Source: Bifidobacterium aquikefiri
Lineage (GTDB): Bacteria; Actinomycetota; Actinomycetes; Actinomycetales; Bifidobacteriaceae
Length of the DNA: 64,000 nucleotides
Direction: 5' to 3'
Assembly: GCF_002259795.1 (NCBI RefSeq)
Contig: NZ_MWXA01000001.1
Coordinates: forward strand, 1 to 64,000
A program made the translations under genes and the position numbers. Each line of letters starts with the position of its first letter. Position 1 is the stretch's first letter. This document shows positions 55,325 through 61,292 of this stretch, piece by piece. The notes beneath the pieces were generated by a model. That model did no database searches, had not been told where the DNA came from, and saw nothing but the letters and a program-made list of their open reading frames with translations.

Positions 55325-55345
55325 ATTACTTTCGATGGGGTGGTG

Positions 55346-55699
55346 ATGAAACGGTTTTCACTCAACTTTTATTCTTCGGAGGACGGGCTCAAGCCCATCG
55401 AGATATTTCTCGACAATATTTCAGACAGAAAATTATTAGCAAAGATATTACGAGATTTCAGTTTGCTTGAAGATTTTGGTAATAAATTGCGATCTTCGCA
55501 TTCGAAATATCTGAGAGGAGGAATATTTGAGCTTCGCAGTAAGCAATCGACCAATATAGTCCGTTGCTTTTATTTCTTTCAACATGATAATCAGATAATT
55601 CTTACTCATGGAATCGTCAAGAAACAAAACGCTGTACCAGCCGAAGAAATCGTAAAAGCCATGAATTATAAGACAGATTGGGAAAAGAGGAATCGATGA
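55346..55699 (+). CDS. higB: RelE/HigB-type toxin (phage Gp49-like)
   Basis: The 117-residue protein of the RelE/ParE superfamily, most like the Gp49/HigB group, probably cleaves mRNA on ribosomes. The core includes MKRFSLNFYSSEDGLKPIEIFLDNI, LRGGIFELRSKQSTNIVRCFYFFQHDNQIILTHGIVKKQ, with the ELR and R-C-F-Y-F pattern typical of the fold, and VPAEEIVKAMNYKTDW at the C-terminus. ATG 55346 is chosen; two GTG codons lie just before it. The antitoxin start overlaps its stop by 4 bases. Toxin-first order is characteristic of higBA. Confidence 0.88.
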   Translation: MKRFSLNFYSSEDGLKPIEIFLDNISDRKLLAKILRDFSLLEDFGNKLRSSHSKYLRGGIFELRSKQSTNIVRCFYFFQHDNQIILTHGIVKKQNAVPAEEIVKAMNYKTDWEKRNR

Positions 55700-55968
55700 G
55701 CGATTTTCATAAGTATCTCTCTAAGAAGCTCAAGGACCCTGAATTTGCGCAGGAATATGATGCGTTGGAACCAGAGTATCAGGCTGCAAGAGTGGTTATG
55801 CAGGCTCGCATAGATGCTGGTCTGACACAGCAGCAGCTAGCGGATGTAACTGGCATTCGAGCGTCAAACATCAGTCGCTTGGAAACCGGCGGTTCGATGC
55901 CGAGTCTGCGAACACTGCAACAACTGGCGAAGGGGCTGCATAAGACGTTGAGCATCCAATTCGTCTGA
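55696..55968 (+). CDS. higA: HigA-type antitoxin, XRE helix-turn-helix
   Basis: The 90-residue protein has a C-terminal helix-turn-helix: VVMQARIDAGLTQQQLADVTGIRASNISRLETGGSMPSLRTLQQLAKGL. The N-terminal DPEFAQEYDALEPEYQAARV segment is typical of HigA and probably wraps the toxin. ATG 55696 follows AGAGGAATCG and overlaps the toxin stop (ATGA). It should neutralise HigB and repress the operon via the palindrome at 55309-55324. Confidence 0.92.
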   Translation: MSDFHKYLSKKLKDPEFAQEYDALEPEYQAARVVMQARIDAGLTQQQLADVTGIRASNISRLETGGSMPSLRTLQQLAKGLHKTLSIQFV

Positions 55969-56182
55969 GAAGCACGACATGGGTCACCGCATCGTTCTCA
56001 TAAGAGCCTCAGTCTGTAACACGTTGTGTGGGTTGCGGTAATGTTGCATGTCTAGCATGACGTTCATTCAGAGAGAAGAAACCGGTGTGAAGCCGTGTTG
56101 TTTCGAACTTTTTCACGATGCATGTGCTTAAGTGAAATAACCGCTCAGTTGCTCACCGTTCGACTAGGGAATGGAGCAGAAT

Positions 56183-58363
56183 ATGTTAGAATCCAATGCA
56201 CGTGAACTTGCAGGCGAATTAGTTGGTCGGCGAGAATCCATCAATCGTGAGCTCAGTCGCAACGGGGTCCGCTTCGGAATCTACTCCAAGGGTCATTACG
56301 AGGATCGGCTCTTTCCCTACGATCCAATTCCACGAATCATTGAATCGGCTGAATATGACAACCTTGAACGAGGACTCAAACAACGAGTCAAGGCGCTCAA
56401 TGCATGTCTGCGTGATATCTATTCTGATAAACGGATCATCAAGGATGGTGTGATTCCCGAAGAATATGTCTACACATCCGTCGGGTACTATCCACAGGTC
56501 AATGGAGTCACACCCCCAGGGGGTGTCTTTGCACATATCGCCGGCGAGGATCTGGTCCAGGGAGAGGACGGGCAATGGTGGGTTTTGGAAGACAATCTGC
56601 GCATTCCGTCTGGTGCGAGCTACCCTCTCTTTGTCCGTGACATTGAACGACGCATCTATCCAACACTCTTCCGAGATGTGCATATACGAGATAACCGTGC
56701 ATATCCTCGTCTGTTGCGCAAATCAATGGACTTTGTCTCTACCGAGGGAATAGCCGTCCTGCTTACGCCGGGCAGTCAGAATTCAGCCTTCTTTGAACAT
56801 GCGTATCTGGCAGAAAAGACCGGGGCGACACTTGCCTTTCCGGAAGATTTGGAAGTCGTGCAGAATCGCGTGTACTTCGTTGACTATGCGGGCAAACGCC
56901 AACGAGTCGGCGTAATCTACAGACGTTTGGCTGACGAGTACCTTGATCCTTTCAGTTTCAATCCTGATTCAGTCATAGGCGTTCCTGGACTGCTCGCAGC
57001 ATATAGTGCCGGGAATGTGGCCATCATGAATGCGCCAGGCAATGGCGTGGTTGATGACAAGGCCATGTATTACTTCGTGCCTGACATGATCCACTATTAC
57101 CTGCATGAGGAACCGATTCTCCAGAATGCGCCGACCTATATGCCGATGTTCGAAAAGGACAGAAAGATCGTGCTTGATCGTCTTGGCGAGCTTGTCATCA
57201 AGGACGTGGCCGAAGCCGGTGGGTACGGCGTGGTCTTTGGCTCAAGTCTCAATGCCAAGGAACGCGATGATATGGTGGATAGAATTCGCGAAGATCCGCG
57301 CCGATTCATTGCCCAAGAGGTCATTCAGTTCAAGGACATCGACATCGTCAATCCAAAGACGGGCGAAAGAATGCCGCGAAAGGCTGATTTGCGAGCATTT
57401 GTGATATCCGGCCAGCATACGCACGTCTGGTATTCGGGATTGACGCGATATTCGTCGTTCAAAGGCGAGATGATTGTCAATTCGTCCCAGGGCGGTGGAT
57501 TCAAGGATACGTGGATTCTCTCGCCGGAACATTCCGAGGAATTGGATGAGAAAACTCAACTCGATGCCGTGAATCTGGTTGGCAATTATTCGAAGCATGC
57601 AGCGACGTTGGTTACCGCAGCCAAGGCTGACAATCTCTATTGGCTTGGCCGCTATACCGAACGCGTGTTCACCACCATCGGACAGTTCTTCCCCTTCTAT
57701 GATTTGGTCATGGATACGCAGGTCGATGCGTTCAAGCCATTTGCCAAGGCATTGGATCTCTCTGAAGAGTTTGATGACTTCGACAGTTTCATCCACTCCT
57801 TCCTCTATGACCCGGACAATGCCAATTCGGTTCGGAGCGCCATGCAGGCAGCCTTCAACAATGCGGTTGTATTGCGCCCTGAACTCGGATCGAATCTTGT
57901 GCAGTACATTGAGATGTCGGTGAATACGATTGCCGGCGCTGCTCACGGCGGTCTCAAATCCGAAAACATTTATAGGCAGCGTGACATCACCGATTACATG
58001 CTGGCTCTGTGGGGAGGCGTTGAGGATTCCGCTCTGGCACCCGTGCTCAAGGCGTTCCTGTTCATCGGCAAATATCTTGAGCGCGTGGATCTGTATACGC
58101 GATTCAGGCTTCCTGAGACAGACTTGCAGGCGCCGCTGAGCAAGCTCGCCACCTATGGTTCGATGCTGAACGGTATGCCGTTGCCGCAGTGCTTTGCCTC
58201 GGGTGCAAGGCAGTTGCTGAAACAGCTGCCAGAGCGAGGGTATGAGCAACTTTCGCAGCGCATTACCGAATTCCTCAATGGATTTGAAGGGCGGGTACTT
58301 GATATTGATAGTGGAAAGCCACGCGTGATGAACTCGATGAACATGGATTTTCGGCTTGAATGA
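56183..58363 (+). CDS. Circularly permuted ATP-grasp protein fused to an alpha-E domain
   Basis: This 726-residue fusion is of the DUF404/DUF407 (CP_ATPgrasp) type plus alpha-E. ATG 56183 has GGAG at 7 bases; ATG 56171 is less likely. Residues about 1-475 form the ATP-grasp: GVRFGIYSKGHYEDRLFPYDPIPRII, YYPQVNGVTPPGGVFAHIAGEDL, WWVLEDNLRIPSGASYPLF, IKDVAEAGGYGVVFGSSL and KADLRAFVISG. Residues about 480-725 are the alpha-E domain, starting NLYWLGRYTERVF. Elsewhere these are usually two genes. Comparative genomics has suggested a peptide-ligating or peptide-tagging system with transglutaminase-like proteases; no biochemistry is established. A transglutaminase gene follows. Confidence 0.93.
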   Translation: MLESNARELAGELVGRRESINRELSRNGVRFGIYSKGHYEDRLFPYDPIPRIIESAEYDNLERGLKQRVKALNACLRDIYSDKRIIKDGVIPEEYVYTSVGYYPQVNGVTPPGGVFAHIAGEDLVQGEDGQWWVLEDNLRIPSGASYPLFVRDIERRIYPTLFRDVHIRDNRAYPRLLRKSMDFVSTEGIAVLLTPGSQNSAFFEHAYLAEKTGATLAFPEDLEVVQNRVYFVDYAGKRQRVGVIYRRLADEYLDPFSFNPDSVIGVPGLLAAYSAGNVAIMNAPGNGVVDDKAMYYFVPDMIHYYLHEEPILQNAPTYMPMFEKDRKIVLDRLGELVIKDVAEAGGYGVVFGSSLNAKERDDMVDRIREDPRRFIAQEVIQFKDIDIVNPKTGERMPRKADLRAFVISGQHTHVWYSGLTRYSSFKGEMIVNSSQGGGFKDTWILSPEHSEELDEKTQLDAVNLVGNYSKHAATLVTAAKADNLYWLGRYTERVFTTIGQFFPFYDLVMDTQVDAFKPFAKALDLSEEFDDFDSFIHSFLYDPDNANSVRSAMQAAFNNAVVLRPELGSNLVQYIEMSVNTIAGAAHGGLKSENIYRQRDITDYMLALWGGVEDSALAPVLKAFLFIGKYLERVDLYTRFRLPETDLQAPLSKLATYGSMLNGMPLPQCFASGARQLLKQLPERGYEQLSQRITEFLNGFEGRVLDIDSGKPRVMNSMNMDFRLE

Positions 58364-58531
58364 GTGTTTGTGGACCTGAATGGATATGTTTGGCCGAAGC
58401 ATGTACACAGTTTCTTCGATGCTGAACTGACCGAATTCGTGGTGCGTGTGTGTATGCTAACAACGTAAGAATGCGTGAAATGCTGGTTTGGGACATGCTG
58501 TTTCACACATGTATTGAGGAGCAGAGTGCTT

Positions 58532-59332
58532 GTGAAGAAACTTGTATTCGACTATGTGATGAAGCTGAGCTTCAGTGATGCCGTGACGGATCACCGCTTT
58601 CAGTTGCGCTGCGTACCGGCTTCAGGCCCACGTCAACAGGTTGTCGACGTCAAGGTAAAGGTGCTTCCAGAAACCGATCTGGAAACCGAGCATGACGGGT
58701 TCGGTTCTGTTGTGATGACCGGCTTCATCCCCAAGCCGCATACATCCTTTGAGTATTCTGTCACAGGCATTGCCTTTGTTGACAACGACCACACACAGTC
58801 AGAAGAATTCAAACCACTGTATAACTATGATTCGGTGCTGACTGTGCCGGGTCCGACGATTGAGGCGCTCTGTAAGAACTGCAGGGAGAAGCTGGCTGAA
58901 GAACACAAAACCGGTGATTCAATGGCAACGGCCAGTGAAATCATGAGCCAAGTATTCAATGCCTTTACCTATACACCAGGGTCAACGACGATTCGTACCA
59001 CCGCTGAGGAGGCGTTGGAGCAGGGGACTGGTGTGTGTCAGGATTATGCGCATGCGATGCTGGCTGCATGCCGTGATTTGGGCATTGCATCACGCTATAT
59101 CGCAGGTCTGCTGATCGGTGAGGGAGCTACGCATGCCTGGGTCGAAATCTACGACAACGGCCGTTGGGTCGGTTTCGATCCCACGCATAATCGACTTGTC
59201 AACGATGATTACATCACGATTTCCCACGGTCGTGATTATCGTGACTGCGTCATTGATATTGGAACATTTTCGGGGGCAAACGTAGAACAGCGTCAGTGGG
59301 TGAATGCATCGGTTCATGAGCAGGTCGCATAG
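58532..59332 (+). CDS. Transglutaminase-like cysteine protease
   Basis: The 266-residue protein starts at GTG 58532, which has GAGGAG at 10 bases; GTG 58526 is too close to that site. An N-terminal beta-sandwich domain (about 1-125) of the Bact_transglu_N type is followed by the catalytic domain. The triad is visible: Cys in GVCQDYAHAMLAACRDLGIASRYIAGLL, His in THAWVEIY, and Asp in WVGFDPTHN. It corresponds to the partner of ATP-grasp/alpha-E proteins. Together they may make and cleave a peptide bond on an unknown target. The gap from the fusion gene is 168 bases. Confidence 0.93.
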   Translation: MKKLVFDYVMKLSFSDAVTDHRFQLRCVPASGPRQQVVDVKVKVLPETDLETEHDGFGSVVMTGFIPKPHTSFEYSVTGIAFVDNDHTQSEEFKPLYNYDSVLTVPGPTIEALCKNCREKLAEEHKTGDSMATASEIMSQVFNAFTYTPGSTTIRTTAEEALEQGTGVCQDYAHAMLAACRDLGIASRYIAGLLIGEGATHAWVEIYDNGRWVGFDPTHNRLVNDDYITISHGRDYRDCVIDIGTFSGANVEQRQWVNASVHEQVA

Positions 59333-60121
59333 CGTGGCATAGCATAGTCTGAGGGGGCAAGTCTGGTCTGCACAGGCTGAGAAGGACTAAACCAGTGATT
59401 GCGAATATTTGACAATATGTTCGTATATGCGCTTAATTACCGATGCAGGTATCGGCCGATCGCGGAATCATGGTCGGATTACCTGAATGCCTGTCAATCA
59501 TCTGGTGGTTTTCGGGTCTGATTCGGTGGGGAAGTCCAGCGGCGAGTTTGTACCGAAGTTCGCAACATTCTTGTCATCTGGAGAACAGTGACATGGCATG
59601 AGTGGCTTTTGCAGCGGAAGAAAATCCCGACGAACAGCTGCCAACTTTGTTCGCTGCATGTTGTGCATGACTTGCGGGAACTGGGCTGGAACCCTCGAGT
59701 TTCGAAACAATTGAGGAGGAAGAGCTCCTGCAGAGCCTTGCCGACGTATCATCAACAACCCAAAACAGTGCCTGACTCCCTTTTCTTGGCCTTGCATGAG
59801 CATTACACCGATGCCCGCACGGTCGTGTTGGTTGGTTTTGCCGGTCAGATGATAGCCACCAACAACTTCAACTCGGTGATGTCATACCTTGGTAAATTTG
59901 ATTACTGTTTATAACCATAGCTTATGACTTTTTTGGAAAACCATTGAAATTGTAGGGTTTTCAGAGTTGCGGAGGCTCGTTGCTTCTGGCTTGGAATCTG
60001 GCGGGCGGCATTGGTGACTTGTAGCAAATTTATACATCATATACAGTCTTGCTCACGATGCATCAAGATTTTATACGCAAGCTTCAGCAGGCATGTGCAT
60101 GCCGTGAGATGGGACAGAACA
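59333..60121. other. Gene-poor stretch with a decayed gene
   Basis: Apart from the carboxymuconolactone-decarboxylase-like remnant at about 59588-59914 nothing is supported. The bases 59920-60121 should hold the promoter of the dehydrogenase-metN operon; no convincing elements were found. Confidence 0.5.
59588..59914 (+). pseudogene. Decayed carboxymuconolactone decarboxylase/AhpD-like gene
   Basis: The last 35 codons read DARTVVLVGFAGQMIATNNF then NSVMSYLGKFDYCL, which resembles the end of carboxymuconolactone decarboxylase/alkylhydroperoxidase-like proteins. Upstream, natural-looking sequence appears in other frames, for example ETIEEEELLQSLADVSSTTQ near 59697-59760, so frameshifts are needed to join the pieces. 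Interpretation as a broken gene is an inference; the family assignment is tentative. Confidence 0.45.
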
Positions 60122-61292
60122 ATGCAAGACTTTGAATTCCACGAACCGACACGAACTATTTTTGGCCGAGATGCACTTGACCAGCTATCCAAGGTGCTAT
60201 TGCAACTCCGTGTGCACAGCATACTGGCAGTTAGCGGTGTCACATATCCAGAAGAGCTGGGAATTCAGGCAAAAGTCACAGCTGTATGTGACGAGCAAGG
60301 CATTGACCTGATTTGGAGCGACGAAGTGAGACCAAATCCTCGCTTGGAGCTTGTACATCAACTTGTTGACACAGCGCGAGAGCACAATGTCGACCTGGTC
60401 ATTGCGGTTGGTGGTGGTAGCTCCATTGACACGGCGAAGACGATTGCTCTCGGAGTGCCTTATGAGCATGATGTGTGGGATTTCTTTCAACGGAAAGCTG
60501 TTCCAGTCACAGCATTGCCGATCGGGGTGATTTCAACGATTCCTGGAAGTGGGTCAGAGCAATCGGATTGTGCGGTGATCCAAGAAGGCAGGAATAAGGT
60601 CTTCTTTGAAAATCCGCTTATTCTCCCGAATTTTACGATCATCAATCCAGAATTCAGTCGAAGCGTTCCAACGGTGTATCAGAGCAGCGCCATTGCAGAC
60701 ATGACAGCCCATCTGCTTGAAGTCTATGCGACCGATGAAGCGCCGGTCGATGTCACCGACAGGTTGATTGAGGCTAGTTTCACCAGCGTGCTCCATATAT
60801 GGTCGCAAGGTGATCCGCGACCCACAGGACGTCGCTGTTCGCTCAGAACTGCATATGCTCTCGGCAGTAACGCATAACGATGGCATTCTGGGCAAGGGGC
60901 GCATTCCGGACTGGGTTGGACACAAGATCGAGCATGAGATATCTGGACTCTTCGGGCTGATTCATGGTGAAGGCATGTCTGTCGTGACTCCGGCATGGAT
61001 GCGCTTTGTTGCAGCGCGAAAGCCAGACAAGCTGGTACAGTTTGCCACGCGTGTCTTCCATATTGATGCCGTGAGCTGGACAGATGCCGAGATCGTTGAG
61101 ATCGCTGCCGCTGAACTCGAGGCATTCTATAGGGAATTGGGATTGCATACCCGTTTGAGCGAGCATGGTATATCGCGGACCGATCTTGAAGACATCGCTT
61201 TTCGTGCCACTCAGGATGGAAGTATTCTGCTTGGCAATTACCTGCAACTGAACACAGCTGATGTGGTCGAACTTCTGGAATATGCATTATGA
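60122..61292 (+). pseudogene. Iron-containing alcohol dehydrogenase (YqhD/Bdh-like), frameshifted
   Basis: The 5' part (ATG 60122 to about 60810) encodes the cofactor domain: DFEFHEPTRTIFGRDALDQL, VIAVGGGSSIDTAKTIALG, ISTIPGSGSEQSDCAVI and, with a metal-site His, ADMTAHLLEVY. From about 60800 the homologous sequence shifts to the next frame, giving KVIRDPQDVAVRSELHMLSA, GKIEHE-like DWVGHKIEHEISGLFGLIHG and GEGMSVVTPAWMRFVA to the stop at 61292. Translated in one frame the protein would stop at 60877. A one- or two-base change near 60795-60815 would restore about 390 residues. Its end overlaps metN by 4 bases (ATGA). Confidence 0.85.

Follow-up and report, generated by a model that had tools for sequence, protein, structure and literature searches.

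A putative two-gene, reduced variant of the CP-ATP-grasp/Alpha-E/transglutaminase system in Bifidobacteriaceae

The first 64,000 nucleotides of contig NZ_MWXA01000001.1 of Bifidobacterium aquikefiri, hereafter the window, carry two adjacent genes on the forward strand at 56183-59332. The first encodes a circularly permuted ATP-grasp (CP-ATP-grasp) domain fused to a short Alpha-E domain, and the second encodes a transglutaminase-like protein (TG). An initial annotation had recognized these families from motifs, and Pfam profiles confirm the identities. The pair is genuine, under selection and jointly occurring in the genomes examined. Its features are listed below, with the supporting evidence in brackets; pLDDT is the predicted local distance difference test score.

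56183..58363, + strand: CP-ATP-grasp/Alpha-E fusion, 726 amino acids (Pfam; match to 3n6x; purifying selection; clade in the tree)
56183..57523, + strand: circularly permuted ATP-grasp domain, about residues 1-447 (Pfam, residues 50-423; 3n6x, aligned to residues 14-447)
57524..57616, + strand: sequence-variable stretch between the ligase parts, about residues 448-478 (alignment; KDTW-WLGRY spacing; pLDDT <50)
57626..58300, + strand: short Alpha-E domain, about residues 482-706, with two ER motifs, GRYTER and GKYLER (Pfam; helical model)
58334..58360, + strand: conserved C-terminal tail SMNMDFRLE, residues 718-726 ([STA]M[NSD][MLQ] pattern)
58532..59332, + strand: transglutaminase-like protein TG, 266 amino acids, triad C169-H201-D216 (Pfam; alignment; model with best fold match 3isr)

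The fusion starts at ATG 56183, with GGAG 7-10 bases upstream, and ends with a stop codon at 58361-58363; an alternative in-frame ATG at 56171 lacks a well-spaced site of the GGAG type. The listed open reading frame (ORF) of TG begins at 58475, the likely start being the GTG at 58532, which follows GAGGAG, and its last base is 59332. Both CP_ATPgrasp_1 (E 1.6e-138) and CP_ATPgrasp_2 (E 4.3e-137) match the first part of the fusion over their full length. The Alpha-E match (E 6.5e-17; 62.6 bits versus a cut-off of 20.8) covers only positions 6-164 of the 294 in the profile. TG contains Transglut_core (E 1.5e-21) and Bact_transglu_N (E 6.9e-12). In the NCBIfam scan no match was obtained for the fusion and only weak matches for TG.

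The loss of ATP-binding residues, which the initial annotation had named as evidence that would count against its interpretation, is not seen. More specifically, twelve motif residues of the ATP-grasp part (D123, E136, N138, R140, K293, K340, Q378, D402, R404, N433, Q436 and K441) are invariant in 40/40 aligned rows, which take in rows at 59, 46 and 32% identity; from the motifs we infer that these are active-site residues. Three of them, D123, E136 and N138, presumably resemble the metal ligands of glutathionylspermidine synthetase. The nearest solved chain to the fusion is 3n6x (E 3e-113 across residues 14-447). In TG, the Cys-His-Asp triad had been described as intact, and C169, H201 and D216 are indeed invariant in 30/30 aligned rows.

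The genome of the window (2.41 Mb in 18 contigs) yields a single Alpha-E match. Bifidobacterium psychraerophilum is the closest named relative in the ATP-grasp tree, with 89% identity in the ATP-grasp part, and one same-genus genome (G098) is closer to the window's fusion (96% identity over the fusion). The ratio of nonsynonymous to synonymous substitution rates (dN/dS) against three relatives was 0.029, 0.037 and 0.049 for the fusion and 0.072, 0.077 and 0.054 for TG, synonymous sites being near saturation for the two more distant of the three. Because these ratios are low, the two genes are not chance ORFs; both are under purifying selection.

The two families were also said to travel together, with scattered independent occurrence in close relatives named as the contrary outcome. 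We searched a sample of 151 Bifidobacteriaceae genomes out of a larger group, and obtained an Alpha-E match in 53 and a TG match in 56, the 53 being common to both. Fusion and TG are adjacent and co-directional in all 53 genomes, separated by a gap of 6 to 311 bases (the TG start being estimated by motif), and no genome among the 151 has just one of the two genes. The three further TG matches are one locus cut by a contig end, which still shows the final residues of the fusion (G066), and two remnants (G083 and G105). In both remnants, which lie between truA and nusA, an internal piece of the ATP-grasp part runs into the last third of TG (scars at L116:8150-8900 and L117:8150-8900). Because the junction is the same in both, a single shared deletion took parts of both genes, after which the remainder of the ATP-grasp part has decayed differently in the two genomes. 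Outside the 151-genome sample, TG of B. minimum is split across two frames, and two loci from the class of Collinsella (L193 and L199) contain only the first part of the ATP-grasp domain, with TG not seen. Bifidobacterium pongonis has what seem to be two copies of the pair placed tail to tail on one contig (L160 and L174), either a duplication or an assembly artefact.

Beyond its two domains, the fusion ends in a conserved tail. The pattern [STA]M[NSD][MLQ] is found in the last 45 amino acids of 48/53 fusions, compared with 1.14 expected after shuffling those 45 amino acids, a procedure in which kinship between the rows remains. A stricter form, [STA]MN[ML], fits 41 of the 53, and the tail mostly reads [STA]MNMDA. 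It lies past the last helix and a stretch of variable sequence at a nearly constant distance, with 42 amino acids from the RGY motif to the end of the fusion in 38/53. Because the pattern is written in 35 different codings, the tail is conserved as protein, not as DNA. It is present in a Collinsella row (L114) and, judged by this pattern, missing from five fusions (L032, L034, L067, L081 and L082), and was not seen at the sister-operon Alpha-E ends examined (these operons are described below). No second conserved copy of the tail's DNA pattern was evident in 16 pair-positive genomes, where the other matches are scattered and unaligned; a tag motif shared with another protein was rejected on this result. 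The tail may be a docking motif. The linker between the ligase parts is variable in sequence, and the KDTW-WLGRY spacing ranges from 39 to 56 amino acids in the 53 rows and is 42 in 30 of them.

To place the fusion among its relatives, a tree was built from 52 rows of the ATP-grasp part. The 37 fused rows all fall into a single clade (bootstrap 99; Shimodaira-Hasegawa-like approximate likelihood ratio test, SH-aLRT, 99), consisting of 34 Bifidobacteriaceae rows and three rows from Collinsella and Olsenella. Its sister comprises 12 unfused rows, which belong to Coriobacteriia and to the class that includes a Eubacteriaceae metagenome-assembled genome (MAG), by the MAG's name Clostridia; support for the sister group is 99/99 as one side of the branch and 95/82 as drawn. 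The tree points to a single origin of the Bifidobacteriaceae fusion, shared with Coriobacteriia. In the Coriobacteriia class, 9/197 genomes have a match (two full fused frames, two truncated and five unfused); this rarity of the fused form makes transfer between the class and Bifidobacteriaceae likely. Some plasmids also give alignments that pass through both domains, a single stretch matching 80% or more of the query in 7 of 117 records. In other Actinomycetota, ATP-grasp matches at 41-44% identity were found at eight loci, with frames mostly too short for a fusion. Five other-Actinomycetota rows are longer apparent fusions (frames of 860-1169 amino acids) on a separate, starred branch, and for this reason the joining of ATP-grasp to Alpha-E probably happened more than once.

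The shortening of Alpha-E is shared more widely than the fusion itself. Coverage of the Alpha-E profile reaches position 163-190 at most in 53/53 family matches. It ends at 163-164 in the Collinsella and Olsenella fusions and in two unfused sister proteins (L231 and L239), and at 188 in a third (L232), whereas unfused Alpha-E proteins of other lineages match positions 1-294 in 4/4 scanned. Because the unfused sister proteins are also short, the shortening seems to predate the fusion.

The unfused sisters were examined at 12 loci (L231-L242), which came from two search sets (5 + 7), the Eubacteriaceae MAG being among the seven. The gene order is ATP-grasp, Alpha-E, TG in 12/12. An AstE/AspA-like gene follows TG in nine loci, and a second one is present in eight of these nine; by search set, the gene is found in 7/7 loci of one and in 2/5 of the Coriobacteriia-class set. 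Three loci are cut short: L234 ends inside the first AstE/AspA-like gene, L242 inside the second, and L241 1.6 kb after TG. All five sister-operon proteins checked match AstE_AspA_cat above its cut-off. Enzymes of the AstE/AspA family cut amide bonds of N-acyl amino acids and are known for small substrates. Within the 151 Bifidobacteriaceae genomes, AstE/AspA (PF24827) was matched in none, the same search being positive in 2/14 control genomes, and likewise no proteasome fold or Anbu (PF00227) was matched in any, that search being positive in 10/14 control genomes. A literature search combining ATP-grasp, transglutaminase and succinylglutamate desuccinylase returned no paper, and we do not claim novelty for the operon. 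Of eight readable pairs of ATP-grasp and Alpha-E genes in these sister operons, seven overlap by 19 bases and one (L234) by 13; the 19-base overlap suggests coupled translation of the two ligase genes.

Structure prediction gave a good model of TG (pLDDT 89; predicted template modelling score, pTM, 0.87), whose best fold match is 3isr, a putative cysteine protease, with weaker likeness to animal transglutaminases. The fusion was modelled less well (whole-chain mean pLDDT 65.6; pTM 0.50): the model is poor in the ATP-grasp part, and the linker and tail are not resolved. The initial annotation suggested that the fused ligase parts make up an obligate complex. This is plausible; an ATP-grasp/Alpha-E interface was sought in the model, where pLDDT is too low around residues 399-476 (<50) to judge one. 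The Alpha-E part is helical, with block means of 62-89. The best fold match of the fusion model is again 3n6x (E 2.7e-25), followed by human and soybean glutathione/homoglutathione synthetases and the fungal ligase Cp1B (E 1.8e-6 to 2e-5). As given in an excerpt of PMC12568646, an ATP-grasp enzyme of the E-64 pathway couples an amino acid to an epoxy acid; Cp1B is named there as an enzyme of this kind, forming a pseudodipeptide. The Alpha-E part obtained no significant match of its own in the fusion-model search; nicotine oxidoreductase, geranyltranstransferase and 14-3-3 were rejected as fold relatives (E >0.3).

The surroundings of the pair differ between genomes (the names truA, rplQ, nusA, infB, MFS and TetR used here were assigned from sequence alone, without a family scan). 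The gene nusA is seen in 33/53 stretches around the pair. In the window, as in L052 and L075, the pair adjoins a major facilitator superfamily (MFS) transporter and a TetR regulator, not truA. The HigBA pair that had been noted next to the fusion is really there, directly upstream at 55340-55968 (HigB-like Gp49 and HTH_3 by Pfam), but it appears incidental: no match was found in the stretches around the pair in five same-genus relatives, so HigBA is probably a local insertion and was rejected as a conserved partner. The pair itself seems to have moved as a unit. The earlier statement that no substrate gene is evident nearby still holds. No Rfam family matched at gathering score in 55900-60200. 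Downstream, at 60011-61292, pieces of an iron-containing alcohol dehydrogenase lie on overlapping ORFs (60011-60877 and 60768-61292), likely the result of a frameshift; L052 has one ORF of 398 amino acids at the corresponding place.

The same three domain families are known from other bacteria, here as described in excerpts of the cited papers. A peptide system of CP-ATP-grasp, Alpha-E and transglutaminase was predicted by Iyer et al. 2009 (as described in PMC5666114 and PMC6376114). The gene set co-occurs with Anbu, for which the authors favour protein degradation over peptide synthesis (PMC5666114). The Yersinia bercovieri ATP-grasp protein from the Anbu operon releases phosphate from ATP; Yersinia Anbu had no peptidase activity, and the hypotheses for the operon were left unconfirmed (PMC6376114). 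In an ntrC mutant of Burkholderia cenocepacia, cluster I35_5080-83 is down 6.0 to 9.4 fold (PMC5491218). In Pseudomonas putida on nitrate versus ammonium, PP_2688 (ATP-grasp) and PP_2685 (proteasome-like) are up by log2 3.99 and 4.44, or ~16- to 22-fold (PMC8050072). These domains also correlate with urea metabolism in marine metagenomes (PMC3597751). In the literature searched, as far as the excerpts go, no defined substrate was found for the system, and a search combining Bifidobacterium, ATP-grasp and transglutaminase returned no paper. Three other hits were uninformative here: a Klebsiella colonisation paper (DUF403, a single insertion site), a Bifidobacterium longum paper (DUF4037, a false word match) and a Bradyrhizobium table row giving a promoter-like sequence before a CP_ATPgrasp_1 gene.

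The initial interpretation, a peptide-tagging or peptide-modifying system, is therefore supported in part: domains, triad and co-occurrence stand, while the shortened Alpha-E, the incidental HigBA and the hydrolase genes of unfused relatives alter the picture. We hypothesize that the pair is a make-and-break module for small peptides or amines, a reading to which we give a probability of about 0.55. More specifically, by a chemistry deduced from the families, the fusion would spend ATP on converting a carboxylate to an acyl phosphate and would couple it to an amine; the amide or isopeptide bond so formed would lie on an acceptor that is a small peptide, an amino acid or polyamine-like. The short helical Alpha-E domain would hold or select one substrate, and TG, acting as a cysteine hydrolase, would cleave either that product or a related peptide. 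In this reading Bifidobacteriaceae keep the minimal core of the known system and lack both the Anbu protease and the AstE/AspA-like genes that go with it in relatives. ATP-dependent amide ligation by the fusion is a prediction; ATPase activity and nitrogen control are borrowed from relatives. In favour of the module stand the invariant motif residues of both proteins, the fold matches of the two models, phosphate release by the Yersinia ATP-grasp protein, the constant adjacency and the shared deletion of the genes, the AstE/AspA-like genes of the sister operons and the nitrogen responses of proteobacterial relatives.

Several observations weigh against this module. TG may act as a cross-linker instead of a hydrolase, and three of the 12 sister loci have no AstE/AspA match. 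With Anbu as bait in Yersinia, no specific interaction with other operon proteins is reported (PMC6376114, excerpt). All reports of nitrogen control concern Proteobacteria with the unfused form. The pair has no reported activity, substrate or product. One of the 53 fusions (G126, L078:6122-8377) has an in-frame stop early in the ATP-grasp part while its TG frame is open, reflecting either a decaying gene or a sequencing error. Neither gene was matched in 95/151 genomes, and since absence is this common, any benefit of the pair is conditional. Furthermore, truA lies within 3 kb of the pair in 46/53 genomes, sharing its strand in 31 and lying on the other in 15, and a promoter and terminator scan, which gave fewer promoter-like sites than shuffles and was not used, found no regulatory site.

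Other explanations were weighed on the same evidence. A glutathione-like gamma-glutamyl peptide, in which a GCS2-type ligase makes a dipeptide that the fusion extends and TG degrades, would fit the glutathione synthetases among the closest folds after 3n6x, and a GCS2 gene is present in 52/53 pair-positive versus 62/98 other genomes (Fisher p 2.4e-7). Kinship and genome reduction confound that association, which is not seen within the window's genus (6/6 versus 16/21, p 0.56); GCS2 is also common without the pair, and the pair-positive G110 lacks it. We therefore treated GCS2 as confounded, rejected it as a partner and regard this explanation as unlikely. The window's genome has a GCS2-type ligase gene at G000:C17:213334-214158. 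Rather unlikely, too, is protein tagging, in which proteins would receive a peptide or amino acid from the fusion and TG would take the tag off or prepare it. Such tagging has been put forward, among other proposals, for the Anbu operon (PMC6376114, excerpt), and the fusion has a conserved C-terminal motif. Yet no proteasome-fold protein occurs in the 151 genomes, the tail has no evident second conserved copy in the 16 genomes searched, and the sister operons carry genes of a family with small substrates. Those hydrolase genes and the short Alpha-E would favour small-molecule or peptide make-and-break over protein tagging.

That TG is a true transglutaminase, cross-linking or deamidating proteins with an amine donor supplied or recycled by the ligase, would agree with its Transglut_core domain, its triad and the weaker likeness to animal enzymes; the nearest fold is the putative cysteine protease 3isr and the family name says little on reaction direction, and we consider it improbable. 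We also entertain, as a long shot, that the two proteins of the fused clade complete a cycle on their own, with the tail as a docking arm, or even as the acceptor peptide, presenting a substrate to the ATP-grasp site or to TG; no separate substrate gene would then be used, since the ligase would bring its own handle. Membership in a toxin-antitoxin or defence island, suggested by the adjacent Gp49 and HTH_3 genes, deserves almost no credence, as HigBA is matched in none of the five relatives' stretches, no PADLOC match was obtained up to E 0.1, and the pair is mostly linked to truA in the family.

Of the CP-ATP-grasp/Alpha-E/transglutaminase system, the pair is the smallest form seen: two proteins, no Anbu, no AstE/AspA, and scars of paired loss. 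As species of one genus also differ in having it, the core biochemistry is testable with two proteins, and to judge by the sister operon, small N-acyl or isopeptide compounds would be the first substrate class to consider.

Compared with known systems, the pair shares with that of Iyer et al. the conserved catalytic motifs and a gene cluster made up of the three domain families; a full ATP-grasp, an Alpha-E with ER motif, a partner with the triad and gene linkage are all present. It differs in that the ligase is fused, Alpha-E corresponds to about the first half of the Pfam model, and there are two genes only, without Anbu. The Anbu operon of Yersinia bercovieri and Pseudomonas putida likewise has ATP-grasp, Alpha-E and transglutaminase, and is set apart by its proteasome-fold protein. 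The unfused sister operon has the same gene order and a short Alpha-E (in those scanned), whereas its ligase genes are separate and overlapping and AstE/AspA-like genes lie downstream in 9/12. The five longer fusions of other Actinomycetota resemble the pair in that the fusion-profile match passes beyond ATP-grasp within one open frame, but they sit on a separate branch and their fusion appears independent. Finally, 3n6x, a putative glutathionylspermidine synthase from Methylobacillus flagellatus, has the ATP-grasp domain, but its 474-amino-acid chain ends where the ATP-grasp match ends and has no Alpha-E part. By these comparisons of sequence, the Bifidobacteriaceae pair qualifies as a distinct, reduced variant of a known, uncharacterised system.

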